Shown: positions 11,702 to 34,387 of the stretch, piece by piece
How the letters are laid out: the number at the start of each line of letters is the position of its first letter
How positions within the stretch are numbered: the stretch's first letter is position 1
NCBI RefSeq assembly: GCF_019355395.1
Contig: NZ_CP048829.1
Location: 1,426,001 to 1,490,000 of the forward strand
Length of the DNA: 64,000 nt
Direction of reading: 5' to 3'
From: Chordicoccus furentiruminis
Lineage (GTDB): Bacteria; Bacillota; Clostridia; Lachnospirales; Lachnospiraceae
Notes under the pieces: model-generated
What the model was told of the DNA's origin: nothing
What the model saw: the letters and a program-made list of their open reading frames with translations, nothing else
The model's database searches: none
Program-made: the position numbers and the translations under genes

Positions 11702-14257
11702 TTATTTACCGAGCTTCTGAATCATCCGGTAGACCCGTGTCGCATTGACCTCAAGCTGACGGCGGCTCAGATCGCCGCTCTTCAGCGCCTCCAGAAGGTT
11801 CTCATAGACCGCCTGCGACCCCGGCATGATCAGATCGCCGCCGGCCGCCGCGATCTTCCACGCCGTCGGAGCCGGATACTTCGATCCCTTCTTCTTCATC
11901 TCCGGAAGCAGCCAGTCGGTCATCACGATGCCCTGATAGCCGAACTCCTCTCTCAGAATTTCCATCAGTCCCTTCCGCTCGTTGGTATGCTCCCCGTTCA
12001 GAAGGTTATAGGACGTCATCAGCGCGTGCGGCTGGGATTCGCGCACACAGATTCCGAAGCCCCTCAGATATATCTCTCTCATCGCCCGCTCGCTCACCTG
12101 ACTGTTGCTCGTGTAGCGGTTCGTCTCCTGATTGTTGACACAGAAGTGCTTGATCGTCGTACCACATCCCGGATGCTTCTGCACGCCGTCCGTGATGGCG
12201 GCCGCGAACCGCCCGCTCACCAGCGGATCCTCCGAGTAGTACTCGAAATTCCGCCCGCAGAGGACATGCCGGTGAATGTTGAGCGCGGGCGCCAGCCAGA
12301 GCTGAACACCGAAACGCTCCATCTCATCCCCGACGATATCCCCGCAAAGCGCCGCAAAATCCGTGTTCCAGCTCTGCGCGATCGCCGTGCCGATCGGAAT
12401 CGCGGTAGCGAACTGATCCCTGACTTCCTCTCCCCTCTTCGGCCGGTACGCGAGGAAGGTCTGCATCGCCCAGCGGGCCGCGCCGGGGAGGTACTCCAGC
12501 ATGGATTCCGGCACCGGGCTGCCCAGAGAATGAGCTCCATCCGCGCCGCGCACAAAATGACGCGCGAGACGGAGTCCGGCCGGGCCGTCCGCCATCACCA
12601 GCGATCCGATCCCGATATCCTGAAGCGCCCGGGTCGTCTCGCCGGCGGCGCCTGCCACTGATCCCGCAGAGTCGCCGACCATCGTCAGCAGGCGCCGCTT
12701 CGGATTGAAATGGCCGACGTTCAGATACGCCAGCTGCTCATCCGTGAGACCGTGCAGATACGCGTCGATATCCGCCGGCTGCCCGGTTTCGTCCGCTGCC
12801 TTCGTTCCGTCCGTCTCTTCTCCGGACGCCGCTGTCTTTTCCCCGGACGCCGCTGTCTTTTCTCCGGCTGTCCGGTCCTCTCCGCTCTGCCCGGAGGCGT
12901 GCTCATCCGTCTGATCCGCCGCTTCGGGCGCCGTGCTCAGGATATCCGCCGCGTTCATGGCAAGCACGGGGACATCCTCCGGCGTCTCACTGACCGGCTG
13001 TTCCGGCTTCCAGTCCTCGAAATCCGGCGTGCCGCAGCGGCAGGCTGACCGGCGAACCACCACGTCTTCCGCCAGCCTCACCACGGCGGCCGGCTCTGTG
13101 CTGCGGCTGTCCGTGCCGAGGCGGAGCACATAGTCTCCCTTTTCAAGAACATAGCAGGCGTTCTCCGTATCCCATGACGCCAGATCCACCATCGCGGCGT
13201 CGATCATCACGGTTTCGCTCTCCCCCGGAGCCAGCTCCGCGGTTTTCGCCCAGCCGGCGAGCTCCTGATACGGCTGATCCAACCGTCCCGCGGGCTTCGA
13301 CACGTAGAGCTCGATCACCTGCCGGCCGGGCCGGTTTCCTGTGTTGCGTACCTCCGCGGAAACCTGCAGCCGGCCGTTCTCCGCCGTCACCAGCGCGTTC
13401 GACATGGCAAACGTCGTGTAGCTCAATCCATAGCCGAACGGAAACAGCGGCTTTGTCCCGAAGGAGTCGAAGTAGCGGTAGCCCACATAGATCCCCTCGC
13501 GGTAATGCGTGTCGTCCTCTTCCCCGAAGTCACCGACCCAGGAGTAATCCGTGGCGGCGGCCCAGGTTGTGGTAAGACGGCCTGACGGATTGTCCTTGCC
13601 GACCAGAATCCGGCTCAGCGCCAGCCCCGTATCGACACCGAGCTGCGACAGGAGAAGGATATTGTCGAGATCCATCACCGGGGAAAGGTCCACCGGCCCG
13701 CCCACGTTGAGCACGAGCATGCATGTTTTGTACTTCTGCTGCATCGTATGAAGATCGCGGATCTCCGTCTCTGTCAGATAGAAATCCCCTTCCTCCGCCT
13801 TCCGGTCGTTTCCCTCTCCGCAGATCCGGGCGAGAACATACACCGCCGCATCGCCTTCCGCGTCCATCGGAAGATCGTAATCAGGCTCCGGCATCACCCG
13901 GCCCATACCCTCCAGCACAGCCGGCACCTTCTTTTTCCTCGCCACGGCCTTCACCTCTTTCAGAAAGCGGGCCTTCGCTCTGGCAATCTCCCGGTCATAT
14001 CCGTCAAGCCACGCTCCGGAGGTGATCGTGAATCCCGTGTGGCAGAGCGCCTCCTCGACGGAAACCGCAAACCGGGAATTCACCTCTCCTGATCCGGTGC
14101 CGCCCTTCAGCGTATGCCGGGCGCCGCTGCCGTACAGGGCGATCCTGCAAGGCCGCGCCAGAGGAAAATCGCCGTTGCTCTTCAGAAGAACTGTGCACTC
14201 TGCGAGATGCGGTCGCAGCGCCTTCAGATGCTCTTTCTCGTACTCATATAATTCCAT
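11702..14257 (-). CDS. Glycoside hydrolase family 3 beta-glucosidase, circularly permuted domain order
   Basis: 851 residues. The domains are in reversed order: the GH3 C-terminal alpha/beta-sandwich domain and fibronectin-like domain come first (ALSRILVGKDNPSGRLTTTW, FPFGYGLSYT, then VRNTGNRPGRQVIELYVSKP). A disordered linker follows (about residues 440-500, A/E/T/G-rich, with EKTAASG repeated twice). The catalytic TIM barrel is last (VMADGPAGLR, IKHFCVNNQETNR, and the nucleophile Asp in GIVMTDWLLPE). This order is known for GH3 enzymes of ruminal Ruminococcus and Butyrivibrio. No signal peptide, so intracellular hydrolysis of imported beta-glucosides is likely. The second ATG is chosen because AAGGAG lies 6 nt before it. 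Divergent from the alarmone synthetase gene. Confidence 0.9.
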   Translation of the reverse strand: MELYEYEKEHLKALRPHLAECTVLLKSNGDFPLARPCRIALYGSGARHTLKGGTGSGEVNSRFAVSVEEALCHTGFTITSGAWLDGYDREIARAKARFLKEVKAVARKKKVPAVLEGMGRVMPEPDYDLPMDAEGDAAVYVLARICGEGNDRKAEEGDFYLTETEIRDLHTMQQKYKTCMLVLNVGGPVDLSPVMDLDNILLLSQLGVDTGLALSRILVGKDNPSGRLTTTWAAATDYSWVGDFGEEDDTHYREGIYVGYRYFDSFGTKPLFPFGYGLSYTTFAMSNALVTAENGRLQVSAEVRNTGNRPGRQVIELYVSKPAGRLDQPYQELAGWAKTAELAPGESETVMIDAAMVDLASWDTENACYVLEKGDYVLRLGTDSRSTEPAAVVRLAEDVVVRRSACRCGTPDFEDWKPEQPVSETPEDVPVLAMNAADILSTAPEAADQTDEHASGQSGEDRTAGEKTAASGEKTAASGEETDGTKAADETGQPADIDAYLHGLTDEQLAYLNVGHFNPKRRLLTMVGDSAGSVAGAAGETTRALQDIGIGSLVMADGPAGLRLARHFVRGADGAHSLGSPVPESMLEYLPGAARWAMQTFLAYRPKRGEEVRDQFATAIPIGTAIAQSWNTDFAALCGDIVGDEMERFGVQLWLAPALNIHRHVLCGRNFEYYSEDPLVSGRFAAAITDGVQKHPGCGTTIKHFCVNNQETNRYTSNSQVSERAMREIYLRGFGICVRESQPHALMTSYNLLNGEHTNERKGLMEILREEFGYQGIVMTDWLLPEMKKKGSKYPAPTAWKIAAAGGDLIMPGSQAVYENLLEALKSGDLSRRQLEVNATRVYRMIQKLGK
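12829..12872. repeat. Tandem 21-bp coding repeat in the GH3 linker
   Basis: Two near-perfect 21-bp copies containing CCGGACGCCGCTGTCTTTTC, encoding the repeated EKTAASG peptide in the disordered linker of the permuted GH3 enzyme. In frame, so copy number can change without breaking the gene. Confidence 0.7.
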
Positions 14258-14395
14258 CTGCATCTCCTTTCTTAACCCGGGACGCCGAAAGCGTCTGTAG
14301 TTTTACTTTACCATCTGCTTCAGATGAACACAATCGGAATCGCTTAACACAGGCGTCCGTTTGCTCTGCCCTGTCTTCATTTCTTCACATCTTCC

Positions 14396-17454: not shown

Positions 17455-19644
17455 TCAGCTCTCCGCCGGCTTCTTCGCCGCGCGGCGGCCTCCCGTGGTC
17501 CGTTTCGCGGTCTTTTTCTCCGGAGCGGCAGCGGTTCCCGCCTTCACGGTCCCTGCCGTTCTGTCCGCCGGCTCCGTCTTCTTTTCCGACGTCTTCGCTC
17601 TTGTTCCGGCGCCGGTGCGCTTCTTCGTCTTCTCCTCCTGCGGTGCGGCCGGAGCGTCCGCGGTTGTCCTTGCGGATCCGGTGCGCTTCTTCACCGCGCT
17701 CTTCGGCGCTTCTGCCGCCTTCTTTTCCTTCTCCGATTGATAGAGGAATACCAGCGCGCCGTAGCCCGGAAGCCTGAATCCGAAGCTGTAGGGCTTCCCG
17801 TCGCATTCCTTCTTCACCGCCCGGAAGGACTTCTTCGTGAAAACGGAGTGGCCTCCGTATTTCGGATCCATCGAGTTGAGGATCAGCTTATAGCTGCCCG
17901 GCTCGAAACAGCCGACACGGTAATCATCCCGCTCCACCGGCGTCATGTTGAGGACGAAGAGCAGGTTGTTTTTGCCGTCCGGCGATTTCCGCACGAAGCT
18001 GTAGATACTCCGGCTCGCGTCGTCGGCGTTGATCCACTGGAATCCGTTGGGATCATAATCCGTCGCATAAAGCGCAGGATACTTGCCGACCATCGTCCAG
18101 AGCGCCTTCACATAATCCTGCAGCTGCTTGTTCAGCGGCTCAGCGAGCAGATACCAGTCGATTTCCCGCTCCTCGCTCCACTCGCGCTGCTGCCCGAATT
18201 CCTGGCCCATAAAGAGGAGCTTCTTGCCCGGATGCCCGGCCATATAGGTATAGCCCGCCTTCAGGTTGGAGAATTTATCCTCATAGATTCCCGGCATCTT
18301 GCTCCACATCGAGCATTTCAGATGGACCACCTCGTCATGGGAGAGAACGAGAACGTATTTCTCCGCGTACGCGTAGGATGTGGAGAAGGTCATCTTGTAA
18401 TGATTGCCTTTGCGGAAGAGCGGATCGAGCTTCATGTACTCCAGGAAATCGTTCATCCAGCCCATATTCCACTTCAGCGTAAAGCCCAGACCGTTCTCCT
18501 TCTCAACATCTCCGGTCACCTTCGGCCATGCCGTGGACTCTTCCGCGATCGTGACCGCGCCCGGATTCCGGCCGCGAAGCAGCGTATTCAGATGCTTGAA
18601 AAATTCAATCGCGTCGAGATTCTTGTTCTCGCCGTACTTGTTGGCGATCCACTCGCCGTCCTTCTTGCCGTAGTCGAGATACAGCATGGAGGCGACCGCG
18701 TCCACGCGGAGTCCGTCCACATGCATGAACTCCACCCAGAACAGGGCGTTCGCCAGCAGGAAGTTCTTGACCTCCGGCTTGCCGTAGTTGAAGATCTTTG
18801 TGCCCCACTCCGGATGCTCGCCCATTCGCGGATCGGCATGCTCATACAGCGCGCAGCCGTCGAAGTCGGCAAGCCCGCAGGCATCCTTCGGAAAATGCGC
18901 CGGCACCCAGTCAAGGATCACGCCGATGCCTTCCCGATGGAAATAATTGATCATATACACAAAGTCTTCCGGCGTGCCGTAGCGCGAGGTCGGGGCATAA
19001 TAGCCCGTGACCTGATAGCCCCACGATCCGTCGAAGGGATGCTCGGCGATCCCCATCAGCTCGATGTGGGTATAGCCGAGGTCCTTGATGTAATCGGCCG
19101 CCCGCTCGGCGAACTCCCGATATGTGTAAAACCCGTCTACGCGCCCGTCGCAGGCCGGATGCTTCATCCACGAACCGATATGACATTCGTAGATAATCAT
19201 CGGATCCTTGTCCGGATTGAAAGCTGCGCGTTTTTTCATCCAGGCGCTGTCCGTCCATTTCAGATGCGTCAGATCCGTCACGATGGACGCGGTTCCCGGC
19301 CGAAGCTCCATCTGGTTGCCGTACGGATCCGCCTTATAGAGCCGTTCGCCGTTCGGTCCGACGATGAAATACTTGTACATGGAGCCGACGCCGATACCCG
19401 GAATAAAGACCTGCCATACGCCGATCTCGTCCCGGTTCCCGATCACGTTCGCGTCCGGATTCCAGCCGTTGAAGTCGCCCACCACGGAAACGCTTCGGGC
19501 ATCCGGCGCCCAGACCGCAAAATATGTGCCTGCCTGACCGTCTATTTCCGTCGGATGCGCGCCCAGCTTCTTATAGAGATCGTAGTGCGTCGCATGCCCG
19601 AAATAATACTGGTCCGTCTTAGTAAACTCATATTTGTTTTCCAT
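17455..19644 (-). CDS. glgB: 1,4-alpha-glucan branching enzyme with lysine-rich C-terminal tail
   Basis: 729-residue GH13 enzyme that forms alpha-1,6 branches in glycogen. Seen: N-terminal CBM48 (YFAVWAPDARSVSVVGDFN), GH13 motifs ILDWVPAHF, GLRVDAVASMLY (nucleophile Asp), TIAEESTAWP (acid/base Glu) and LSHDEVVH. The catalytic part ends near residue 636 (GYGALVFLYQ). About 93 residues then follow, rich in K, R, A and T with repeated KKRTG and EKKT elements, resembling a histone H1-like tail that GlgB normally lacks. The ATG at 19644 is preferred because GGGGTGGG precedes it; an ATG five codons upstream lacks such a site. No other glg genes are in the window. Promoter at 19716-19744. Confidence 0.92.
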   Translation of the reverse strand: MENKYEFTKTDQYYFGHATHYDLYKKLGAHPTEIDGQAGTYFAVWAPDARSVSVVGDFNGWNPDANVIGNRDEIGVWQVFIPGIGVGSMYKYFIVGPNGERLYKADPYGNQMELRPGTASIVTDLTHLKWTDSAWMKKRAAFNPDKDPMIIYECHIGSWMKHPACDGRVDGFYTYREFAERAADYIKDLGYTHIELMGIAEHPFDGSWGYQVTGYYAPTSRYGTPEDFVYMINYFHREGIGVILDWVPAHFPKDACGLADFDGCALYEHADPRMGEHPEWGTKIFNYGKPEVKNFLLANALFWVEFMHVDGLRVDAVASMLYLDYGKKDGEWIANKYGENKNLDAIEFFKHLNTLLRGRNPGAVTIAEESTAWPKVTGDVEKENGLGFTLKWNMGWMNDFLEYMKLDPLFRKGNHYKMTFSTSYAYAEKYVLVLSHDEVVHLKCSMWSKMPGIYEDKFSNLKAGYTYMAGHPGKKLLFMGQEFGQQREWSEEREIDWYLLAEPLNKQLQDYVKALWTMVGKYPALYATDYDPNGFQWINADDASRSIYSFVRKSPDGKNNLLFVLNMTPVERDDYRVGCFEPGSYKLILNSMDPKYGGHSVFTKKSFRAVKKECDGKPYSFGFRLPGYGALVFLYQSEKEKKAAEAPKSAVKKRTGSARTTADAPAAPQEEKTKKRTGAGTRAKTSEKKTEPADRTAGTVKAGTAAAPEKKTAKRTTGGRRAAKKPAES

Positions 19645-19715
19645 CGGTACCCACCCCATTTGTTTTTTACAGACAATCCTGCCTCAGATCGCCGGAAGCC
19701 TGACAATCTTACCTT

Positions 19716-19744
19716 ATTATAGTATGAAGCGCGCGCGCTGTAAA
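19716..19744 (-). promoter_or_regulatory. glgB promoter
   Basis: On the minus strand, TTTACA (19739-19744), 17 nt, TATAAT (19716-19721), about 72 nt ahead of the glgB start. The spacer contains an alternating GC run (GCGCGCGCGC). Confidence 0.8.
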
Positions 19745-19850: not shown

Positions 19851-19987
19851 GGATGCGTCCGCATCCGGATGCATGTCCATAAAATGCATCCGGATGATGT
19901 ACCCCCGGATGCATGTCCACAAAATGCATCCGGATGACGCGCTCCCGAATGGTTCCGAAGCCGGGTGCATGCCGATAAGATGCACCC
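19851..19987. repeat. Array of three covarying hairpins after the GH1-like gene
   Basis: Three palindromic units, each a stem with a 9-nt loop. Unit 1: arms CATCCGGATGCAT 19862-19874 and 19884-19896. Unit 2: core CCGGATGCAT 19905-19914 with complement from 19924. Unit 3: GGGTGCAT 19963-19970 and ATGCACCC 19980-19987. Units 1 and 2 repeat at exactly 40 bp. Unit 3 changes both arms in a compensating way and keeps the loop length. A degenerate GGATGC/GCATCC pair lies at 19851-19866. The array begins 16 nt past the GH1-like stop codon and ends over 100 nt before the glgB promoter, so it would be in the 3' UTR of the GH1-like message. No T-tract follows. Confidence 0.8.
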
Positions 19988-20003
19988 CCTCCGGATTTGC
20001 GCG

Positions 20004-21293
20004 TCAGGGATGATACTGCTGGGCTTTCACATAGCGCTCGGCCAGCTCCTCGGTCACGCCTCTGCAGGCGATGATCTCCCGGTAGAAGTGGCCGCTCCGC
20101 TTCACGCGCCGCTCGCCGCTTTCAAAGTCCACATGGACGAGTCCGTACCGGCGGCTCTCTCCGCCCAGCCACTCGAAGCCGTCGAGGAAGGAATAATAAC
20201 AGTACCGCTCCACCGGAAGACTGGTACGGGCGAGCACCGCCAGCTGGTCGTAGAGCCAGAGGCTCCGGAACGAATCCGAGTTGTCGCAGACGCCGTTCGC
20301 GAGAATCCAGACCGGCTTCTGACAGATCGCATAGAGCTCCCTCATCGCATCCTCCAGCCCCTGCGGATAGATTTCCTTCCCGCAGTCACTCTTCGGATCC
20401 TGCGCCCGCGTCTCGTTGTCGCCGATGCGGACGACATGAGAACGCGTGCAGTAATCGAGGCCGAGGTAGTCGCAGTATGTTCCCTTTCGGAACCGGGCGA
20501 GATTCTCCATCGGGAATTGGAAATCCCCGAGAAGGAACGCGCGGGCCGGCAGTTCCTGATAGAGATACTGGCTGATCCGCGCAGCCTGGGACTCCGTCGT
20601 GCTGAACGGGTGCAGCGCGGCAAAGGAGCGCATCGCAAGCGCCACGCCGACGCGGGTATCCGTGTATCCCATCGCCTCTCTCATCCGGTGAATCTTCTCA
20701 TACGCCCGGATGTGGCAGCCCGCCATCACGGAGAGCACGCGGCGGACCGTGATCAGATTGCTGTCTCCCGGCGGAAAGCCGTGACCCGCGTAGCCCATCC
20801 AGGCGTAGACGTTCGGTGCGTCGAAGGTGACATAATCCGACACCAGATCGCCGAAGCAGTTGACGACCAGCCCCACATATCTAAGAAAACTGCGCACATT
20901 GGCCGGCCGCGTGAACGCGCCTCTCCGCTCGAACCAGATCGGATTCGTAAACTCATGAATCGTCAGTATCGGACGGATCCCGCGGCTTTTCATCGAGATC
21001 AGCTCATCCCGGTAATGGTTCACCGCCTCATAGTCGATCCGATCCGGCTCCGGCTGAATCCGCGCCCACTCCACACTGAAACGGTATGTCTGCACGCCGA
21101 GCGCGGCCATCAGATCCAGATCGCTCCGGACCCGTTCCCAGTGTCCGGCAGCCCGCCGGCTGTCCGCGCCGTCGCGGATGCGGTCCGTCCGGCTCCATTC
21201 GTCCCAGTTCGTCCGGACGAAGCCGCCCTCGATTTCCGTCGCCGTCGAGGCAACGCCCAGCAGAATGCCTTCCGGCAGCCTGTAGCCCTTCAT
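20004..21293 (-). CDS. GH1-fold protein lacking both catalytic glutamates (probable pseudoenzyme)
   Basis: 429 residues, close to the normal length of family 1 glycosidases, with the fold's landmarks intact: GVASTATEIEGG at 13-24, FSVEWARIQPEP at 72-83, an LTIHE segment near 110-114, and the C-terminal FLDGFEWLGGESRRYGLVHVDF. However, the acid/base motif T(F/L)NEP reads TFDAP (residues 156-160; A159 at 20817-20819) and the nucleophile motif TENG reads ILANG (A332 at 20298-20300). Both catalytic Glu residues are alanine, with no frameshift or stop. Ordinary beta-glucosidase or phospho-beta-glucosidase activity is therefore not expected. It may bind a sugar or have another role. ATG chosen because AGAGGAG precedes it. 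Followed by a hairpin array. Confidence 0.85.
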   Translation of the reverse strand: MKGYRLPEGILLGVASTATEIEGGFVRTNWDEWSRTDRIRDGADSRRAAGHWERVRSDLDLMAALGVQTYRFSVEWARIQPEPDRIDYEAVNHYRDELISMKSRGIRPILTIHEFTNPIWFERRGAFTRPANVRSFLRYVGLVVNCFGDLVSDYVTFDAPNVYAWMGYAGHGFPPGDSNLITVRRVLSVMAGCHIRAYEKIHRMREAMGYTDTRVGVALAMRSFAALHPFSTTESQAARISQYLYQELPARAFLLGDFQFPMENLARFRKGTYCDYLGLDYCTRSHVVRIGDNETRAQDPKSDCGKEIYPQGLEDAMRELYAICQKPVWILANGVCDNSDSFRSLWLYDQLAVLARTSLPVERYCYYSFLDGFEWLGGESRRYGLVHVDFESGERRVKRSGHFYREIIACRGVTEELAERYVKAQQYHP

Positions 21294-21464
21294 CACAGAT
21301 CTCCTCTCTGCATCATCCCGAACCTGCTGACGGTTCCGCCCGTCAGGCAGGCGGCCTCTCCGTCGGCGTTTTTTCCGCGGACGCATTCCGTTCACGGGAA
21401 AAGGCCGCGCCATCGGGTCAGCGGGAAGCGGAGCGTCTTCGCCGCCGCCCCGCCTCCTCCGTTT

Positions 21465-23168
21465 TCACCGGATGATCTTCCCTTCCGTCACACTGTAGAC
21501 GCCGCGCGGCGTGCAGCGGATCTCCGGGATCACCGGCAGTGCCATAAACGACAGCGTCACAAACGGTTCCATATCCTTCGGGACACCCATCCTGTGCGCC
21601 TTCGCCGTCATCCGGCGGACCTTGCGGTCCACATAGGAATAGCTCTTATCCGAAATCAGTCCCATGATCGGCAGTTCCAGCGTGTCGAAGACTTCCCCGT
21701 TCTCGACGATCGTGTACCCGCCGTGGACCCGTTCCAGTTCCCTTACAGCCGTCAGGATATCCTCGTCCGATGAACCGATCGCGATGATGTTGTGGCTGTC
21801 GTGGGAGACCGAGGAAGCGATCGCGCCGTTTTTGAGGCCGAAGCCTCTCACCACGCCGGCGCCGATCTTTCCGGTCGCCTTATGCCGTTCAAACGCCGCG
21901 ATCTTGTCCAGCTCTCCGTCCGGCGCGAACAGCCCGTCCGGCCCCGCGGGCAGCACAAGATCCTCCCGCTCGGTCAGAATCTGCCCCGGAATCATACGGA
22001 TCACCGGGAACATTCCGCCGTCCGCCCGGATCTTCAGCTTCTCCGGATCGATCACGCCGAGATGCACCGTATCCAGAAGCTGCGGCGGACAGGGCTTCGG
22101 ACGGACCTTCAGCATGTCGTCGATCCGGTGTCCTTTGTAGAAGACCATCTGGGCGTTGAATTCCTTGATGGAATCCCAGACGACCAGATCCGCGTCATAC
22201 CCGGGCGCGACCGCGCCGGTCCGGCGCAGCCCATAGCAGCGCGCCGGCTGAATCGTCGCCATCTTGACCGCCGCGATCGGGCTGATCCCCATACTGACCG
22301 CCTTGCGCACGTTGTGGTCGATGTCGCCCTCCCGGCCGATGTCCTCGATGTGCTTGTCGTCGGTGCAGAAGCAGAAACCTTCGGTGTTCGTGTTGTTCTC
22401 CACGATTCCTTTCACGATCATCTCGAGATTCCGCGCCGCGCTGCCCTCCCGGATGTGGCAGGTCATGCCCATCGAGCGCTCCTTCATCACATACTCGTAG
22501 GTTGTTCCCTCATGATCCGTGGTGATGCCCGCCATCACATAGGCCGCCATCTGCTCGTCCGTAAGACCCGGCGCGTGGCCGTCCTTCACCTTCCCGTCGA
22601 AGAGCTCGATCTTCTCGTTCATCGCGGGATCCCCGTTGATGACGGACATGCAGTCCATCACCTCGCCGAGTCCCAGTACACGGCGGTTCTTCAGATACGG
22701 CGCCATCTTCCCGGCCGTCAGAATGAAGCCGTTGTCGTCGATCGCGGTCGCCGGAACACAGCTCGCCATCATCACATAGACATGCGCCGGCGAATCCTTT
22801 GTCTGCTCCAGAAGATAGTCGATGCCGTCCGTTCCGGAGACATTGGCCGCCTCATGGGGATCCACCATAAACGTCGTCGTCCCGTGCTGCGCCGCCTTGG
22901 CGATCAGTACCTGGGGATTGACCATCGTCGATTCAAGATGCAGGTGCGCGTCGATGAAGCCGCTTGTCAGGTACTGCCCGTAAAGATCAATCTCTTCCTT
23001 TCCCTCGTAATCGCCGATTCCGACGATCATTCCGTTGGTGATCGCCACATTTCCTTCCTCCACGCGGTCGGTGAAGACGTTGACGATCTTCGCATTCCTC
23101 AGGACAAGGTCCGCTTTCTCAAGCTTCTGCGCCGCTCTCGAACAGCCGATGTATTTGTCGAGCTTCAT
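21465..23168 (-). CDS. ade: Adenine deaminase
   Basis: 567-residue amidohydrolase that converts adenine to hypoxanthine and ammonia in purine salvage. Seen: metal-binding DAHLHLEST near residue 74, HGTTTFMVDPHEAANVSG, the FCFCTDDKHIEDI segment, and the C-terminal Ade domain with SVSHDSHNIIAIGSSDEDI. Length matches the family. GGGAGG lies upstream of the ATG. 171 nt separate it from the downstream GH1-like gene. Confidence 0.95.
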   Translation of the reverse strand: MKLDKYIGCSRAAQKLEKADLVLRNAKIVNVFTDRVEEGNVAITNGMIVGIGDYEGKEEIDLYGQYLTSGFIDAHLHLESTMVNPQVLIAKAAQHGTTTFMVDPHEAANVSGTDGIDYLLEQTKDSPAHVYVMMASCVPATAIDDNGFILTAGKMAPYLKNRRVLGLGEVMDCMSVINGDPAMNEKIELFDGKVKDGHAPGLTDEQMAAYVMAGITTDHEGTTYEYVMKERSMGMTCHIREGSAARNLEMIVKGIVENNTNTEGFCFCTDDKHIEDIGREGDIDHNVRKAVSMGISPIAAVKMATIQPARCYGLRRTGAVAPGYDADLVVWDSIKEFNAQMVFYKGHRIDDMLKVRPKPCPPQLLDTVHLGVIDPEKLKIRADGGMFPVIRMIPGQILTEREDLVLPAGPDGLFAPDGELDKIAAFERHKATGKIGAGVVRGFGLKNGAIASSVSHDSHNIIAIGSSDEDILTAVRELERVHGGYTIVENGEVFDTLELPIMGLISDKSYSYVDRKVRRMTAKAHRMGVPKDMEPFVTLSFMALPVIPEIRCTPRGVYSVTEGKIIR

Positions 23169-24795: not shown

Positions 24796-26166
24796 TCACA
24801 CCTCGCGGAGCGCCGCCACAATCGTCTTCGCCATATAGGCCAGCTTCTCATCGGTCATACCCGGATAGACGCCCACCCAGAAGGCGTCGTTCATGATCCG
24901 GTCCGTATTCGTCAGCTCTCCGGAAATGCGGTAGCCCGCGTGCTCAAGGTCGCCCGCCTCATACGCCGCCCGCATCTCGTCGAAGCAGGGATGACGGGTC
25001 AGATTGCCCGAGAAAAGCATCCGTGTCTGCACGCCGTGATCCTCAATGAAGCGGACGACCTTTTCCCGGCGGCCGCTCTCCCGTATCACCATCAGATATC
25101 CGAACCAGTCCGGATCCGAATGCTCGGTCGCGGCGGGAAGAAGCAGTTCCTTCTCCGCGCCGAGCGCGCGGAGCTGCTCCGTCAGATAGCGGAAGTTGTG
25201 GCGTCTCCTCTCCGCAAATCCGTCCAGCTTGTCGAGCTGCGCGCATCCGATCGCCGCCTGCAGATCCGTCGCCTTCAGATTCCATCCGAAGTGAGAGTAG
25301 ACATATTTGTGGTCATATCCCTTCGGCAGCGTGCCGTACTGGCCGTCGTAGCGGTGTCCGCAGGTATTGTCCCGTCCGGACGGGCAGTAGCAGTCCCGTC
25401 CCCAGTCCCGCATCGAGCGGACGATCCGGTGCAGCAGCGGGTTGTTCGTATAGACAGCTCCGCCCTCTCCCATCGTCAGATGATGGGGCGGATAGAAGGA
25501 GGACGTCGCGATATCGCCGAAGGTTCCCGTGAAACGGGTTTCTCCGTTCAGAGTGTAAGTGGTGCCGAGCGAATCGCAGTTGTCCTCGACCAGCCAGAGG
25601 CCGTGGCGTTCGCAGAAAGCGCGGACCGCGCCGATGTCAAACGGATTGCCGAGCGAATGCGCCAGCATCACCGCCCGGGTCTTCGGGGTGTACGCCTCCT
25701 CCAGCTTCGACACGTCCACATTTCCGGTCTCCAGCTTCACATCCACGAAAACCGGCACCGCTCCGTACTGAATCATCGGCGTCACCGTCGTCGGAAAACC
25801 GGCGGCCACCGTGATCACCTCGTCGCCCTTCCGGATCCGGCGGTCCCCGAGAAGCGGCGACGTCAGCGCGTGAAACGCGAGCAGATTGGCCGAGGAACCG
25901 GAATTGACAACACTCACGAAGCGCACGCCCAGCTTTTCGCCGAACTTCCGCTCAAATTCCTTCGTATAGCGGCCTGTGGTGAGCCAGAACTCCAGCGCCG
26001 CGTCCACCAGGTTGGTCATCTCGTGCTCATCGTAGACACGGGACGCGTAGGGAATCCGGTCGCCCTCGTGAAACGGCGCCGGCCGGTTGTGAAACGTCCG
26101 GCAGTAGGCCGCGACCTCGTCAAGGATCTGCTTCCGGGCCTCTTCCTCCGTCTTGTTCTCAAACAT
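24796..26166 (-). CDS. rfbH: CDP-4-keto-6-deoxyglucose 3-dehydrase (E1)
   Basis: 456-residue PMP-dependent, [2Fe-2S]-containing dehydrase of the DegT/StrS fold. It removes the C3 hydroxyl of CDP-4-keto-6-deoxyglucose on the route to 3,6-dideoxyhexoses. Diagnostic residues are visible: the PLP-lysine position is histidine (SFYPPHHLTMGEGG, H228), and the cluster cysteines follow the E1 pattern, C197 then C259-X-C261-X7-C269. ATG at 26166 chosen by GGAGA upstream; the longer frame is not needed. The start overlaps the end of rfbG by 8 nt. The usual E1 reductase partner (RfbI/AscD type) is not in the window. Confidence 0.92.
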   Translation of the reverse strand: MFENKTEEEARKQILDEVAAYCRTFHNRPAPFHEGDRIPYASRVYDEHEMTNLVDAALEFWLTTGRYTKEFERKFGEKLGVRFVSVVNSGSSANLLAFHALTSPLLGDRRIRKGDEVITVAAGFPTTVTPMIQYGAVPVFVDVKLETGNVDVSKLEEAYTPKTRAVMLAHSLGNPFDIGAVRAFCERHGLWLVEDNCDSLGTTYTLNGETRFTGTFGDIATSSFYPPHHLTMGEGGAVYTNNPLLHRIVRSMRDWGRDCYCPSGRDNTCGHRYDGQYGTLPKGYDHKYVYSHFGWNLKATDLQAAIGCAQLDKLDGFAERRRHNFRYLTEQLRALGAEKELLLPAATEHSDPDWFGYLMVIRESGRREKVVRFIEDHGVQTRMLFSGNLTRHPCFDEMRAAYEAGDLEHAGYRISGELTNTDRIMNDAFWVGVYPGMTDEKLAYMAKTIVAALREV

Positions 26167-27235
26167 GGCTGCTTCTCTCCTCTTCTTTGAAAAATGCCCG
26201 GATCTGCTCCTCCATACAGGCGGGAACGGACGCCGGGTCACGGATCCACACCTTCGACCAGTCCACCGTGCGCCGGACCGCTTCTGCCACGTTCCATCGC
26301 GGCTTCCAGCCGAAAGCGGCCTTCAGCTTCGAGCAGTCCAGCTTCAGATAGTTCGCCTCATGGGGACCGTCCGTCCTCTCCGTGTACCAGGATGAGCCCT
26401 CTCCCCAGTCCGCGCAAAACAGATCCGCAAGTTCGCCGGTCGTGATCGCGTCCGCCTCGTCCGGCCCGACGTTGTAGCTCCCCGCGGCATCCGGGCGGAC
26501 ATACTGCTCCGCGGCGATCATCAGGTAGACCGCCAGTGGCTCCAGCACATGCTGATACGGCCGCACCGAGTGAGGATTCCGCACAAGAATACGCCGTCCG
26601 GCCGTAACCGCCCGGACGCAGTCCGGGACGATCCGGTCCTCCGCGAAGTCGCCGCCGCCGATGACATTTCCCGCACGGGCCGTCGAAACCGCGACGCCCT
26701 GCGCGTCGAAAAACGATTTCCGGTAGCTGTGCGTCACCAGCTCCGAACAGGATTTACTGTTGGAATACGGGTCGTAGCCGTCCAGCGGCTCGTTCTCCCG
26801 ATAGCCCCAGACCCACTCGCGGTTCTCATAGACCTTGTCCGTCGTCACGTTGAGGAAGGAGCGGACCGTGTCGGACCGCCGGATGCATTCACAGACATTC
26901 ACCGTCCCCATGACGTTTGTCTCATAGGTGAGCCGCGGCTCCCGGTAGGAGGTCCGGACGATCGGCTGCGCGGCCAGATGGAAGACGATATCCGGCTTCG
27001 CGAGATCAAAGGCGGCCTGAAGCGCGTCAGGGTCCCGCACGTCTCCCCGGATGGAGCGGATCCGGTCCCCCACGCCGGAAAGCGTGTAGAGATTCGGCTC
27101 CGTCGGCGGATCCAGCGAATATCCGGTCACATCCGCCCCGGCCTGCGCGAGAATTGTCACAAGCCAGCTCCCCTTGAAGCCGGTATGGCCTGTCACCAGG
27201 ACGCGTTTTCCGCGATACAGATTTCTTTCAGTCAT
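26159..27235 (-). CDS. rfbG: CDP-glucose 4,6-dehydratase
   Basis: 358-residue extended short-chain dehydrogenase that converts CDP-glucose to CDP-4-keto-6-deoxyglucose. Seen: NAD-binding TGHTGFKGSWL near residue 14, FHLAAQPIVRTSY typical of this enzyme, TTDKVYENREW, and the catalytic YxxxK in DPYSNSKS. ATG at 27235 preceded by GAAAGGAA. It is 212 nt downstream of rfbF, separated by a tandem 40-bp repeat, and overlaps rfbH. Confidence 0.93.
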   Translation of the reverse strand: MTERNLYRGKRVLVTGHTGFKGSWLVTILAQAGADVTGYSLDPPTEPNLYTLSGVGDRIRSIRGDVRDPDALQAAFDLAKPDIVFHLAAQPIVRTSYREPRLTYETNVMGTVNVCECIRRSDTVRSFLNVTTDKVYENREWVWGYRENEPLDGYDPYSNSKSCSELVTHSYRKSFFDAQGVAVSTARAGNVIGGGDFAEDRIVPDCVRAVTAGRRILVRNPHSVRPYQHVLEPLAVYLMIAAEQYVRPDAAGSYNVGPDEADAITTGELADLFCADWGEGSSWYTERTDGPHEANYLKLDCSKLKAAFGWKPRWNVAEAVRRTVDWSKVWIRDPASVPACMEEQIRAFFKEEERSSHV

Positions 27236-27320
27236 TCCGTTCCTTTCTGTGATCCCTGATTCCGTTTCGGGACATGCAGGCCGCGTTCCGGAAGAATCGG
27301 GCCGCCGCCGGATCAAAGGC

Positions 27321-27460
27321 AGCGTGCTCACCGGCTTCCTGCCTCTGCCGGGCAGTGTGCGGCGTGCTCACCCGTCTCCTGGCCTGGCCGGGCGATGAGC
27401 GGCGTGCTCATCCGTTTCCCTCCGTATCCGGACGATAAGCGGCGTGCTCACCACCGCTTC
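27321..27460. repeat. Tandem 40-bp repeat between rfbF and rfbG
   Basis: Four copies beginning at 27321, 27361, 27401 and 27441, each opening with (A/G)GCGTGCTCA; the GTGCTCA core recurs at 27324, 27364, 27404 and 27444, exactly 40 bp apart. The last copy overlaps the rfbF stop codon (27448-27450) and 3' end, so the array looks like serial duplication of the end of rfbF. Copies are diverged in their second halves. No open frame depends on it. Confidence 0.85.
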
Positions 27461-28218
27461 CACGGCGCGTTTCCGGAGGCCCAGAGTGCCTCCAGCTTCT
27501 TCTTCTCCCGCTGGGTATCCATGCACTGCCAGAACCCCTCGTGCAGATACCCCATCAGCTGCCCCTCATCCGCCAGCCGCTGCATCGGCTCCTGCTCAAG
27601 CACGCAGCTGTCTCCGTCCAGATAGTCAAAAATCGCCGGCTCGAAAACCATAAAGCCGCCGTTGATCAGGTCGCCGTCCCTCCGGTTCTTCTCCCGGAAC
27701 TGACGGACCCGTCCGTCCGGCGCGCAGTCGATGACTCCCTTCTGCTGTGCGAAGCGGATCATCGTATCCGTGGCGATCCGCCCGTGACTCCGGTGAAACG
27801 CCAGCAGAGCGTCCAGATCCACATTGGATACGCCGTCGCCGTAGGTCAGCATAAACGTCTCGTCGCCGACATACTTCTTTACCCGCTTCACGCGGCCGCC
27901 GGTCATCGTGTCAAGGCCCGTATCCACGATGGTGACCGTCCAGTTCTCCGAGTGACCGTCCAGCACCTTCATCTCATTCGTCTCGAGATTGAAGGAGACG
28001 TCGGAGTTGTGCAGAAAATAGTCCGCGAAGAACTCCTTGATGACATACTGCTTGTAGCCGCCCAGAATGATGAAATCGCGGTAGCCGAATGAAGAATAGT
28101 ACTTCATGATATGCCAGAGGATCGGCTTCCCGCCGATCTCGATCATCGGCTTCGGCTTATACTGGGATTCCTCCGAGATACGGGTTCCGTAGCCGCCCGC
28201 CAGAATCAGAACCTTCAT
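27448..28218 (-). CDS. rfbF: Glucose-1-phosphate cytidylyltransferase
   Basis: 256-residue nucleotidyltransferase making CDP-glucose from CTP and glucose-1-phosphate, first step of the CDP-dideoxyhexose pathway. Seen: LAGGYGTRISEESQYKPKPM at the N-terminus, GGKPILWHIMKYYSSFG, YGDGVSNVDLDALLAFH with the metal-binding Asp, and GGFMVFEPAIFDYL. ATG at 28218 chosen by the GGAAGGA upstream. Same strand as tatD (107 nt upstream) and rfbG. Confidence 0.95.
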   Translation of the reverse strand: MKVLILAGGYGTRISEESQYKPKPMIEIGGKPILWHIMKYYSSFGYRDFIILGGYKQYVIKEFFADYFLHNSDVSFNLETNEMKVLDGHSENWTVTIVDTGLDTMTGGRVKRVKKYVGDETFMLTYGDGVSNVDLDALLAFHRSHGRIATDTMIRFAQQKGVIDCAPDGRVRQFREKNRRDGDLINGGFMVFEPAIFDYLDGDSCVLEQEPMQRLADEGQLMGYLHEGFWQCMDTQREKKKLEALWASGNAPWKRW

Positions 28219-28325
28219 ACGCCCGTCCTTCCTGCCGGCTCCGCCGACATCGCACATTTCCCGTGTTCGTTCCCGCCTGATCCGCGCTTTTTCCGGCGGC
28301 AGGGCCGTCTTCCCGCTTTGTTCCG

Positions 28326-29153
28326 TCATTGCCTCAGATCAAACAGCCGCAGCGCGTTCTCAAAGGTCGCGCGTTCCACTTCGGCCTCCGGGACCCCCTT
28401 GATCTCCGCGACGGCCTGCGCCACCAGCGGAAGGTAAGCGGACGTATTGCGCCCGCCTTTGTGCGGCTCGGGAGCCAGATACGGCGCGTCCGTCTCCAGC
28501 ACGAAGCAGGAGAGCGGAAGATGCTCCACCACACGCTTCAGCTTCTTTGATCCCTGATAGGTCAGCACGCCGCCGACGCCCAGAAGAAAGCCCAGCGAAG
28601 TATAGATCTTCGCCTGCTCAAGCGACCCCGAATAGCTGTGAATGACGCCCGGCACCCGGCTGCCCGCGGCCAGCGCGGCCGCGAAGGCCGGATTCTCCGC
28701 CGCGCAGACGGAGGAATCGCCGTACATCGCCTCGATCACGCTCAGTGTGTCGGCGGCTGCATTTCTCGAATGAACGAGGATCGGCTTTCCGAAAGCCATC
28801 GCGAGACGGATCTGCTCCCGGAAGCACCGGATCTGCACGTCGTGAGGCTGGATGTCCCAGTGGTAGTCAAGCCCGATCTCACCCACCGCGGCGATCTTCG
28901 GATCCTTCAGATCCTCCCTCATCTCCGCCATCACCGCCGGCGTCAGATCCCCCACCTCGTCGGGATGAAGCCCCACCGCGCCGTACGCGAAATCATGCGA
29001 ATCCGCGATGGCGCGCACGCGGGCGAGACTGTCCGCCGAGGCGCTCACATCACAGATCCGCGTGACGCCGGCCGCCGGAAGACCCGCGAGCACCTCCTCC
29101 CGGTCGGCGTCAAACTGGCTGTCGTCATAGTGCGCATGCGTGTCGAAGATCAT
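28326..29153 (-). CDS. tatD: TatD-family metal-dependent DNase
   Basis: 275-residue metallo-hydrolase. Seen: HxH motif DTHAHYDD at the N-terminus, GEIGLDYHWD with metal-binding Glu near 95, PILVHSRNA, GVIHSYSGS, and ETDAPYLAPEP carrying the last Asp. Family members are 3' exonucleases or deoxyribonucleases. It starts 4 nt after metG ends, a pairing (metG-tatD) common in Firmicutes, so the two are co-transcribed. Confidence 0.93.
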   Translation of the reverse strand: MIFDTHAHYDDSQFDADREEVLAGLPAAGVTRICDVSASADSLARVRAIADSHDFAYGAVGLHPDEVGDLTPAVMAEMREDLKDPKIAAVGEIGLDYHWDIQPHDVQIRCFREQIRLAMAFGKPILVHSRNAAADTLSVIEAMYGDSSVCAAENPAFAAALAAGSRVPGVIHSYSGSLEQAKIYTSLGFLLGVGGVLTYQGSKKLKRVVEHLPLSCFVLETDAPYLAPEPHKGGRNTSAYLPLVAQAVAEIKGVPEAEVERATFENALRLFDLRQ

Positions 29154-31467: not shown

Positions 31468-34242
31468 TCATCCCTTCTTCCAGAGAGAATCGACCTCCAT
31501 GATGTACGTCGACGTGCCGTCAGAGAAGGCCACCTTTCCCAGCTTCTGCAGCAGCGCGTCCTGCACGGTTCCGTACGTCTCGCGTTCCAGCGCACCGATG
31601 TAGATGTAAGAGATCCGGTACTTCCGGATCAGATTCTTCACGGTTTCCTCATCGGAGGAAGTATAGATGGCGCGGATATCGCTCACTCTCTGGTTCAGTT
31701 CATCGACCCGGTTGCGCCAGAGCCACTCGTGAACATACCAGCCCGCCACCGTCGGCAGACCGGTCGCCACAGAGACGCGGCCGCAGTCGGTGTAGCTGTT
31801 TCCGGATGCCTCCAGCACAGTCGGCTGTCCGTCCACATGCTGCGTGAGCCAGCGGACGGCGCGGAAGTCAGTGGGGAAGGACTGGGCGATAAAGACCGAG
31901 GCATCCGATGAAATCCGCTTCGAGGGGTCGAATACGTTTCCGAACCACGAGGATACCGCTGTGCCGGTGTAGCCGCCCAGCACGCAAAGAAGCAGAATGC
32001 CCGCCACGGCGGCGGTAAGGCGCGCCTTCCGGCGCCGGTCCGCCCGTCTGTGAAGGAGGCTCACCGCCATATGCGCGCTGTGCGCCGTCCTCCGGGCAAG
32101 AGGTTCCTCCGCCTCCTCCCCCAGAATGTGCCGTGCGGCGTCGTCTGTCCGGTCGATGAGCGACGCGAGATCCGCGTCCGGCTTCGCATCGATGCGGAAA
32201 CGCTCCTCAAAGGCACGCCGGCGGTTGACCGCCAGCACCCGGACCAGCGCGTAGGCCATCACGATGCCGAACAGGATGAACGCCTGGTATGTCAGCTTGA
32301 ACATCGTGTTCGCGCGGTAGTTCTCCCCGCCGTAGATGTCCTTCACATAGATGAACTCGGGCATCGCCACCAGGCCCGCCGCGCAGAGACCAAGCAGCAG
32401 CACGGTCAGATCCGGCAGAGCGACGGGATGAGCCGACCACTGCATTTTCCGGGTCGTCCGGCGCATGTGGCGCTGCTCCCGAAAGAGCGTCAGCGCGAAC
32501 CAGACATAAAGGATACAGGGCAGCCCCCAGATCACCAGAAGCTGATGAAACAGCGTATGGCTGTGCGTAAGGCCGATCTGCGAGGAAATCTGCCAGAATG
32601 TCAGCGTAAACGGAAGGGCTCCCGCCCATCCCGCGGCGAACATCACCGCGGCCTCGGCCAGCGTCACGCCCAGAAACCGGAGCAGCGAGCCCCGGTACGT
32701 CCTCCGGTTGACAAAAAGGAGGATCGCTCCGCAGACCACGAAATAGATCGGAAAATCCCAGAAATTCGTCCAGCGGAACACGCCGGTCATCAGGCCGGTC
32801 AGCAGCACCTCCGGCCGGAGGAACGGCAGCCGGTCCGGATGACGCGCATCCTGCTTTTCCGCCCACGCGTAAGCCACCGCCACCACCGTCACAACGAAGA
32901 GGATGTTGATGTAGTGGGCATGCAGATCCCCGAGCACCGAGGAATAGGCCGGAAACTCGTGGATCGTCTTGTCCGGAAGATCCGGGTTATAGCCGATATA
33001 GCGCGTCGAATCCGGAAACCAGTAGCTGTACTTCACGCCGGACGCTGCCGACTGAACCGTCTTCACAATGCCGTAGATAAAGTAATGCATTGTGCCGCAG
33101 AAGGCCACGGCCAGCCCCGCCAGCAGACCGCAGCCATAGCTGGCGGGATCTGCCGGATCCCTGAGTACGGCCGCCCTCGCCGCCAGTGTCTCCCGGGCGG
33201 AAGAGCGGCGGCGCCGGGCGGGGCGCTTCGCGCCGCCCGCCGCGCCGCCCGGCTCGGCGTCCGCCAGGAAGGCCCCGGCGCGCGCGCTGTCCGCTTCCTT
33301 CTTCGCGCGGACAGCCGCCTGCGCCGTCCGGCTTCCCTTCCAGCGGCGGGCCTGGTGCGCCGCCCGCGCCGATGTGAGAAGTCCCTCCGCCTGTTCCGGC
33401 ATCTCCTCGGCCGGCACGCGGCGTGCCGCCCGGCCCAGACGGTCGGCGAGGGAGAGCATCCTGCTGAACTGCTTCGCCGTATCCTGATTCATGAGGTCGT
33501 ACATCAGCTGGAACGCCAGCGAGAACGGAAGCACGAAGGAACAGGCTGTGATCAGGCTCCGCATCACATTGTAGGCCAGCCCCGCGGTCGTTCCCGTCAG
33601 CTTCATGAGCCAGGCTGTGATATACTGTCCGCCGTAATAATAATTGACGTGATAGCCCGCGTACCAGGGATCCGGAAACGGCATCGTCTCGCTCCGCGCC
33701 ATCGAGGTGAGGAACGCGTAGTCCATGAATTTTTCCGTCCCGTATGCCTCCGGCTTGAATCCGACGATCCACATCCAGGCCGTCATGATGCCGAGAAGCA
33801 GGATCTCCTCCGTGAAAATCAGACGCCGGGTCCCCGGATCGCCGAGCCACCCGAAGCCCGGAGACGGGCGCTCCGCCCGGACCGGCGTCACGTCCTTCTC
33901 TTCCGTTTCCTCCTCAGGCACAAATTCCTCCCCGGGAAGCGGTTCGTCCTCTTCATCCGGCTCTTCCGCCTCCGGCGCCGGCCTGCGCCGTCTCGCGGCC
34001 AGATACCCCAGCCAGTTCACCGCGAAGCAGAGGACCAGACAGCCGATTGCCGCCTCCTGGCGGAAAGGCAGAATGCCCGCGACATTCAGCGTCCAGGTCA
34101 GCCACGCCGTCAGAAAGAGGCCGATCATCTTCGAGAAAATCCAGCCATGATCACGGAACCGTTGAAAAATCAGATTGGCAAACGGCAGAAAAGCGACGCC
34201 GATGAACAGCAGAACCGCCCACCAGTACAGGGCATACAGCAT
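31468..34242 (-). CDS. DUF2298 (YYY-motif) multi-spanning membrane protein
   Basis: 924-residue polytopic protein of the DUF2298 / Chlor_Arch_YYY family; the name-giving motif is visible as GYHVNYYYGGQYITAWLMK near residue 210. Many transmembrane segments and a C-terminal soluble region (YKISYIYIGALERETYG) follow. The family is related in architecture to membrane glycosyltransferases, but the activity is not established. Two cytoplasmic low-complexity regions stand out: an acidic one near residues 90-125 and an Ala/Arg-rich one (about residues 270-360, ending KRPARRRRSS). ATG at 34242 chosen by GGAG at 6-nt spacing. Confidence 0.82.
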   Translation of the reverse strand: MLYALYWWAVLLFIGVAFLPFANLIFQRFRDHGWIFSKMIGLFLTAWLTWTLNVAGILPFRQEAAIGCLVLCFAVNWLGYLAARRRRPAPEAEEPDEEDEPLPGEEFVPEEETEEKDVTPVRAERPSPGFGWLGDPGTRRLIFTEEILLLGIMTAWMWIVGFKPEAYGTEKFMDYAFLTSMARSETMPFPDPWYAGYHVNYYYGGQYITAWLMKLTGTTAGLAYNVMRSLITACSFVLPFSLAFQLMYDLMNQDTAKQFSRMLSLADRLGRAARRVPAEEMPEQAEGLLTSARAAHQARRWKGSRTAQAAVRAKKEADSARAGAFLADAEPGGAAGGAKRPARRRRSSARETLAARAAVLRDPADPASYGCGLLAGLAVAFCGTMHYFIYGIVKTVQSAASGVKYSYWFPDSTRYIGYNPDLPDKTIHEFPAYSSVLGDLHAHYINILFVVTVVAVAYAWAEKQDARHPDRLPFLRPEVLLTGLMTGVFRWTNFWDFPIYFVVCGAILLFVNRRTYRGSLLRFLGVTLAEAAVMFAAGWAGALPFTLTFWQISSQIGLTHSHTLFHQLLVIWGLPCILYVWFALTLFREQRHMRRTTRKMQWSAHPVALPDLTVLLLGLCAAGLVAMPEFIYVKDIYGGENYRANTMFKLTYQAFILFGIVMAYALVRVLAVNRRRAFEERFRIDAKPDADLASLIDRTDDAARHILGEEAEEPLARRTAHSAHMAVSLLHRRADRRRKARLTAAVAGILLLCVLGGYTGTAVSSWFGNVFDPSKRISSDASVFIAQSFPTDFRAVRWLTQHVDGQPTVLEASGNSYTDCGRVSVATGLPTVAGWYVHEWLWRNRVDELNQRVSDIRAIYTSSDEETVKNLIRKYRISYIYIGALERETYGTVQDALLQKLGKVAFSDGTSTYIMEVDSLWKKG

Positions 34243-34387
34243 GAAGCACTCCTTTGCATCCGTCATTTCCGAAAGACACGTCGCAGGCGCCGCGGCAGCC
34301 GTTTCCGGCCGTCACTCCGCCTGCATTTTTACTATTCCAGTATAACGCGGCGGGCCGCAATTCACAATTTTTTAATGGCCGCCTTCA

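Follow-up and report, generated by a model that had tools for sequence, protein, structure and literature searches.

A gene with the GH1 fold lies on the minus strand of the window, the 64,000-nucleotide stretch of the Chordicoccus furentiruminis chromosome analyzed here, with adenine deaminase (adeC) upstream and the 1,4-alpha-glucan branching enzyme (glgB) downstream (Table 1). Read in the sequence, its frame runs from an ATG at 21293 through 429 codons to a single stop at the very end, behind an AGGAG, and the original prediction of a full-length, undamaged gene, which gave no strand, is borne out. A simple string match placed a similar Shine-Dalgarno-like site before the gene in 7 of the 14 genus orthologues. 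An antisense open frame of 602 residues overlaps the gene and looks like a by-product of high third-position G+C (0.797 in the GH1 gene) and no gene in itself. Between the GH1 gene and glgB there is one promoter-like site, a consensus match only, where 2.6 such sites were expected in shuffles; glgB may thus have a promoter of its own.

Table 1. Features of the GH1 locus and of its surroundings in the window.
Feature	Position	Strand	Remarks
GH1-fold gene	20004..21293	minus	429 aa, ATG start; predicted barrel intact, without catalytic glutamates
Shine-Dalgarno-like AGGAG	21301..21305	minus	7 bases 5′ of the GH1-gene ATG; read in sequence
Residue 20 = Glu	21234..21236	minus	Gln in 77/80 relatives (best 80 of 211)
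Residue 114 = Glu	20952..20954	minus	His in 79/80 relatives (best 80 of 211)
Acid/base motif TFDAP, residues 156-160	20814..20828	minus	Glu159 to Ala, Asn158 to Asp
Residues 280-282 = D-Y-C	20448..20456	minus	N-Y-Y in intact relatives
Nucleophile motif ILANG, residues 330-334	20292..20306	minus	Glu332 to Ala
Residue 372 (N of DNFEW) = Gly	20178..20180	minus	non-Asn in 9/9 aligned proteins without Glu332
Antisense open frame	19965..21773	plus	602 residues; overlaps the GH1 gene
Promoter-like site TTTACA, 17, TATAAT	19716..19744	minus	between GH1 gene and glgB; consensus match only
GlgB (1,4-alpha-glucan branching enzyme)	17455..19659	minus	NCBIfam NF003811, 863.2 bits; downstream of GH1 gene
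GlgB C-terminal tail	17455..17740	minus	about 90 residues
Adenine deaminase gene (adeC)	21465..23168	minus	NCBIfam TIGR01178, 526.8 bits; upstream of GH1 gene
CDP-sugar genes	24796..28329	minus	between tatD and adeC
Membrane protein with DUF2298	31468..34266	minus	932 residues; 9.1e-97
Permuted GH3 protein	11702..14263	minus

Several other features of the window are recorded here in their own right. The C-terminal tail of GlgB, rich in Lys, Ala, Thr and Glu, extends beyond the branching-enzyme domains, which stop near residue 640, and in several genus relatives the GlgB frame has only about 660-675 residues. The CDP-sugar genes encode a glucose-1-phosphate cytidylyltransferase, a CDP-glucose 4,6-dehydratase and an RfbH-like protein; two or all three of these genes have homologues at the equivalent place in L005, L010 and L034, the nearest relatives of the window in the flanking-gene tree, and no match to them was found in the other genus loci that span tatD to the GH1 gene. 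Homologues of the DUF2298 protein occur near metG in five fetched genus loci (L043, L044, L046, L049, and L053). The permuted GH3 protein carries a GH3 C-terminal domain at residues 24-282, an Fn3-like domain at 316-386 and a GH3 N-terminal domain at 608-846; another GH3 of permuted architecture, BrGH3A from the rumen, is named in PMC11233000.

The window protein belongs to GH1 by its Pfam match (PF00232; 1.3e-58, 199 bits, curated cut-off 22.6). Against the NCBIfam GH1 beta-glucosidase equivalog it scores 185.9 bits, far under the cut-off of 478.5, so that the beta-glucosidase name is not given by that model; misannotation by homology, as had been foreseen, is likely where Pfam alone is used and would be avoided where the equivalog is applied. 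In an AlphaFold model (pLDDT 96.5, pTM 0.94, no residue below 70) the predicted fold is intact. Foldseek returned 779 matches at E <= 0.001, and the 50 matches listed, all described as beta-glucosidases or beta-glycosidases, superpose with TM scores on the query of 0.76-0.88, as fits the (beta/alpha)8 barrel of GH1. The barrel is shared with the ancestral GH1 structure 6z1h and with the Pyrococcus horikoshii GH1 structure 1vff, the best sequence match (E 1.9e-54; 27% identity in Foldseek), both of which have glutamates at the two catalytic places in the alignment, while the window protein has alanine at both. A second GH1 gene in the same genome has intact motifs.

In a phmmer alignment TFDAP and ILANG pair with TFNEP and ITENG of 6z1h, in agreement with the earlier statement that they replace T(F/L)NEP and (I/V)TENG. 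The alanines are encoded by GCA (residue 159) and GCG (residue 332), and neither the T-x-N-E-P acid/base motif nor the (I/V)-T-E-N-G nucleophile motif of active retaining GH1 enzymes is present; a GH1 fold without catalytic glutamates is what is expected of a pseudoglycosidase. The alignment gives further changes (Q20E, H114E, N158D, N280D, Y282C, W306K, W367Y, and N372G). From GH1 structures we take Gln20, His114 and Asn158 to be sugar-contact positions, and Asn280 and Tyr282 would likewise have sugar-contact or nucleophile-neighbour roles. A scan of genome contigs with an alignment found 211 relatives, of which the best 80 were kept (13 from the genus and 67 from outside it), while a scan of the contigs with the single sequence gave no match. 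Among these best 80, position 159 is Glu in all 80 and position 332 in 72, so that the paired loss of both glutamates is confined to the window protein and loss of the nucleophile is common to others. Sequencing error or a frame artefact was ruled out, since the frame is open, several active-site changes go together, and the nucleophile is missing in separate genomes too. That the protein is an ordinary active glycosidase with displaced catalytic residues would agree with a Pfam score well above the cut-off, but it is highly improbable: Asp158 is the sole carboxylate directly beside positions 159 and 332, and the nucleophile neighbours Asn280, Tyr282 and Asn372 have gone as well.

Orthologues were found in 14 of 42 genus genomes, including the window's own (E <= 1e-60). 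The other 13 are on contigs assigned to Lachnospiraceae (eleven) or Clostridiales (two), and ten of these bear the label RUG, for rumen uncultured genome, which suggests that the window too comes from a rumen bacterium. Each of the 14 has one match at that threshold, which rules out an extra copy beside an active orthologue; more distant GH1 genes are present in several genus genomes. The nucleophile is missing in half of the orthologues (7/14), being replaced by Ala in the window protein, L005, L006, L012 and L013, by Ser in L010 and by Gly in L034. The acid/base Glu is kept in 13/14, with the window protein as the exception. Absence of the gene from 28 of the 42 genomes, many of them incomplete assemblies, and from 13 of the 18 with completeness of 90% or more and contamination of 5% or less (5/18 have it), indicates that it is dispensable. 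It also favors a relaxed, slowly decaying gene, whose enzyme was unneeded in the genus, whose nucleophile was lost several times and which is drifting toward deletion, as do three loci among the 30 genus glgB loci examined (L148, L159, and L167), where adeC stands beside glgB with no GH1 match between. Likewise L015, with both glutamates present, is missing the QIEG segment, some of the FEW motif, His114 and Trp367, and is therefore probably inactive as well. We nevertheless regard decay as unlikely, since the GH1 frames are open across the match in all 14 orthologues and many changes at conserved columns fall in the active site; the rates discussed below bear on it further.

Beyond the genus the gene is rare in our samples, with matches in 9/397 genomes of a family-wide draw (E <= 1e-40) and, with a profile, in 17/392 of an order-wide draw (E <= 1e-70), the window's genome being counted in each. 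Other gut clostridia and Treponema have intact relatives (among L075-L142), which belong to the subfamily of the window protein and are 41-50% identical to it. Of the 67 proteins from outside the genus among the best 80 of 211, 65 keep Glu332 and all 67 keep Glu159, whereas the window protein keeps neither; this sample was drawn partly by an EPN pattern (one of two patterns) and by similarity to the window protein, so the high acid/base retention is partly built in. The two remaining proteins are isolated losses: L140 (3901-5181) combines Ala at the nucleophile position with Glu20, and L106 (3729-4970) combines Lys with Asp158. Both have Gly372, as in the window protein, and the three motifs of L175 are identical to those of L106. 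A clade sharing DAP and LANG, which had been named as a result that would support the prediction, does not exist among these relatives, as acid/base loss occurs only in the window protein among the best 80 of 211. The opposite case, in which homologues would all carry NEP and TENG with the window copy alone mutated and evolving neutrally, does not hold either, for there are nucleophile-less relatives and omega is far below 1 in them.

Loss of the nucleophile is accompanied by changes around it. Asn372 is lost in all nine nucleophile-less proteins (the seven genus rows, L106, and L140) and kept in all 71 proteins with Glu332 and no gap there (65 outside the genus and 6 within). Ile157 is changed to Phe in all seven nucleophile-less genus rows, a change that L106 and L140 do not have. 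On our reading, residues that hold the nucleophile in place were released or re-packed. Among the other six genus proteins without the nucleophile, Asn372 remains in 0/6 and Asn280, Tyr282 and Trp306 each in 1/6, while the contacts Gln20, His114, Glu159 and Trp375 are kept in 6/6, Trp367 in 5/6 and Asn158 in 4/6; most contacts and the acid/base Glu thus remain, which fits a binding protein or a catalyst that works with one residue. Five columns (16, 103, 157, 332, and 372) separate the seven nucleophile-less from the other seven genus rows, which is unremarkable as a number given that eleven similar groupings of rows yielded 0 to 8; only the catalytic-motif location of columns 157, 332 and 372 stands out. 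The window's four-member clade has no residue that is fixed in it and found nowhere else, so that no newly gained site is seen there, a point against the favored reading; a control clade of equal size had three such columns.

Two proposals would retain some chemistry in this pocket. In the window protein, Glu20, Glu114 and Asp158 could form a new acid/base pair or a metal- or amino-sugar-binding site. Such new catalysis in an old pocket draws on three sugar-contact positions being acidic in one protein and on the pairing of Glu20 with Ala332 in the distant relative L140; the triple change is found in none of the 80 aligned relatives (best 80 of 211), and we consider the idea less likely than decay. 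For the six relatives, a glycosynthase- or phosphorylase-like chemistry can be envisaged, in which an anionic donor or phosphate would fill the shrunken nucleophile place and the acid/base residue would do the rest. Glu159 is kept in all six, and alpha-glucose-1-phosphate is a metabolite of the glycogen pathway. Engineered GH1 glycosynthases keep the acid/base Glu; the window protein, having Ala159, resembles them in its nucleophile change. The replacements Ala, Gly and Ser are those used to make glycosynthases, according to excerpts of two sources (PMC6151457; PMC8950772), the first of which covers the GH1 glycosynthases Abg E358A, E358S and E358G. These are laboratory mutants that use glycosyl fluorides, unlike the natural window protein and its relatives. 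The second source, in the portion drawn on, also has inverting phosphorylases needing one catalytic residue only, but GH1 is absent from the inverting phosphorylase families in that portion (PMC8950772). Position 306 shows no common new cationic residue across the seven nucleophile-less genus proteins (K, R, H, H, L, I, and W), and Glu159 is missing from the window protein, which makes this chemistry a very doubtful one. Its most specific form is scarcely more probable: the nucleophile-less genus proteins would perform inverting transfer or phosphorolysis with alpha-glucose-1-phosphate, as natural glycosynthases or the first GH1 phosphorylases, and the window protein would be a later offshoot, non-catalytic or re-armed.

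The nucleophile was lost at least three separate times within the genus. A tree built from four flanking genes places the window in a group with three other nucleophile-less loci, L010, L005 and L034 (100/99); L012 and L013 make up a second nucleophile-less group, and L006, also nucleophile-less, falls within a group of intact orthologues (98/98). A single clade of all seven is rejected by the flanking genes (AU p about 2e-80, with L012 represented by only 39% of columns), by the GH1 tree with its active-site columns (p 0.037; window's group 93/92) and by GH1 without 17 active-site columns (p 0.0015), although these p-values are somewhat weakened because the seven-member group was named after the residues had been seen. 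Without the 17 columns, the GH1 tree does not separate the intact pair L008/L035 from the window's group. The minimum number of changes within the genus is three, and the count on the GH1 tree including L106 and L140 is five. A single ancestral loss is thus rejected by both the flanking-gene and the GH1 trees.

Despite these losses, the gene has stayed under purifying selection, as is expected of a pseudoglycosidase after loss of its catalytic residues. This is measured well on the relatives L012 and L013, both with Ala332, the sole unsaturated pair (dS 0.507, dN 0.033, omega 0.066; omega of glgB in the same genomes 0.039). The other seven of the eight pairs computed are saturated (dS 1.3-2.1). 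Pairs with the window gene gave omegas of 0.177 and 0.171 at dS 1.7-2.0, two intact pairs gave 0.123 and 0.110, and three pairs including L005/L034 or L006 gave about 0.10. Selection on the window lineage may have relaxed mildly, given that its pairs lie somewhat above the intact ones, and these slightly higher values (0.17-0.18) would suit decay. A GY94-type codon model (F3x4, topology of the flanking-gene tree) gave omega 0.074 on nucleophile-less branches and 0.087 elsewhere, a difference that is not significant (p 0.18). An omega of 1 is strongly rejected on the nucleophile-less branches (2 dlnL 1114) and on the window branch (2 dlnL 117), where the branch's own estimate lies at the lower bound and its value was not used. 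Together with the low omega of the L012/L013 pair, these rejections speak against decay. The dN/dS check that the original prediction called for thus indicates purifying selection, as run on the relatives. Its central inference, that an intact frame without the glutamates reflects selection for a non-hydrolytic role and not decay, is supported insofar as relatives are nucleophile-less too with omega far below 1 in them, while an omega value for the window branch itself cannot be measured. The roles it put forward, namely sugar sensing, carbohydrate binding or another chemistry, are candidates.

The genomic setting is conserved. In all 14 genus loci glgB lies directly downstream on the same strand (partly visible in L008, L011, and L035), and adeC precedes the GH1 gene in 12/14; the stretches of L012 and L013 hold no adeC and have tatD upstream on the opposite strand. 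Outside the genus, six neighbourhoods were examined (L056-L061), with Pfam typing for sugar genes on L056, L057 and L058. Near the GH1 gene there are GH13 (L056 and L057), GH36 (L057 and L058) and an MFS_2 sugar symporter (L057 and L058), and no glgB match was found in the L056, L057 and L058 neighbourhoods. L057 has metG and tatD a few kilobases from the GH1 gene, as in the window's genus, and the genus locus may on this account be a remnant of a sugar-use cluster. With adenine deaminase on one side of the gene and the glycogen-branching enzyme on the other, its likeliest role would be in glycogen or storage-sugar metabolism, as a partner that binds or regulates, a link that comes from gene position alone. 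GH1 enzymes act on beta-linkages, whereas glycogen is an alpha-glucan, which, with the possible separate promoter of glgB, counts against the link.

Taking these lines of evidence together, we favor a kept GH1 pseudoglycosidase with a binding or regulatory role, to which we assign a probability of roughly 60%. Separate losses of the key residue in a gene still under selection suggest that the protein probably has a job other than cutting sugars. On the best reading these genes represent a lineage of bacterial GH1 pseudoglycosidases in which, among the nucleophile-less members, the window protein has changed most; it would probably bind a ligand or a partner and be linked to the glycogen-branching locus. 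Comparison among relatives suggests an order of changes. Glu332 would have gone first, to Ala (Ser or Gly in some), with the changes at Asn372 and Ile157; the nucleophile surroundings Asn280, Tyr282 and Trp306 would then have been released. In the window protein only, Glu159, the acid/base residue, would have changed last, along with the contact residues Gln20 and His114, leaving a pocket that lacks both catalytic residues and has gained acidic side chains. Double-displacement chemistry would thereby have been lost, and the beta-glucosidase-type barrel kept for binding. The window protein would accordingly be non-hydrolytic, and the ancestral sugar is probably no longer bound by it as it once was.

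Pseudoglycosidases are already known, Klotho being the GH1 case, and so are engineered glycosynthases. In the parts of the Klotho literature drawn on here, the GH1-like domains have their catalytic glutamates replaced (human N239 and S872, mouse N241 and A874), much as in the window protein (PMC8302672), and are kept for binding (PMC7828330). Klothos are, however, tandem-domain proteins of animals that serve as co-receptors for FGF hormones, while the window protein is bacterial and single-domain, lies beside glgB and comes from a genus with several losses. A search of the open-access literature brought up no paper on a lineage of bacterial GH1 pseudoenzymes; subscription journals lie mostly outside that search, and absence there says little.

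A second group of altered GH1 proteins came to light in L041/L061/L192 (G119:C19) and L178/L190 (G573:C5), of which L041 and L178 are more distant relatives of the window protein. Their acid/base Glu is replaced by Asp and their nucleophile Glu by Gln (TFNDA with MQNG; TFNDL with IIQNG). Both sets of genes lie within polyketide-synthase clusters that also contain an HMG-CoA-synthase-like gene, enoyl-CoA hydratases, a hydratase-thioesterase and a ketosynthase. These GH1 proteins may possibly be non-hydrolytic components of polyketide beta-branching, a process for which no paper on a GH1 protein was found in the open-access literature.

Counts of GH1 genes in genomes such as these overstate beta-glucosidase capacity. 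If the nucleophile-less relatives of the window protein are active, they would be natural counterparts of glycosynthases. Moreover, because intact and disarmed orthologues occupy one locus in related species, with at least three losses, the cause and order of the disarming of an enzyme are directly testable in this genus.
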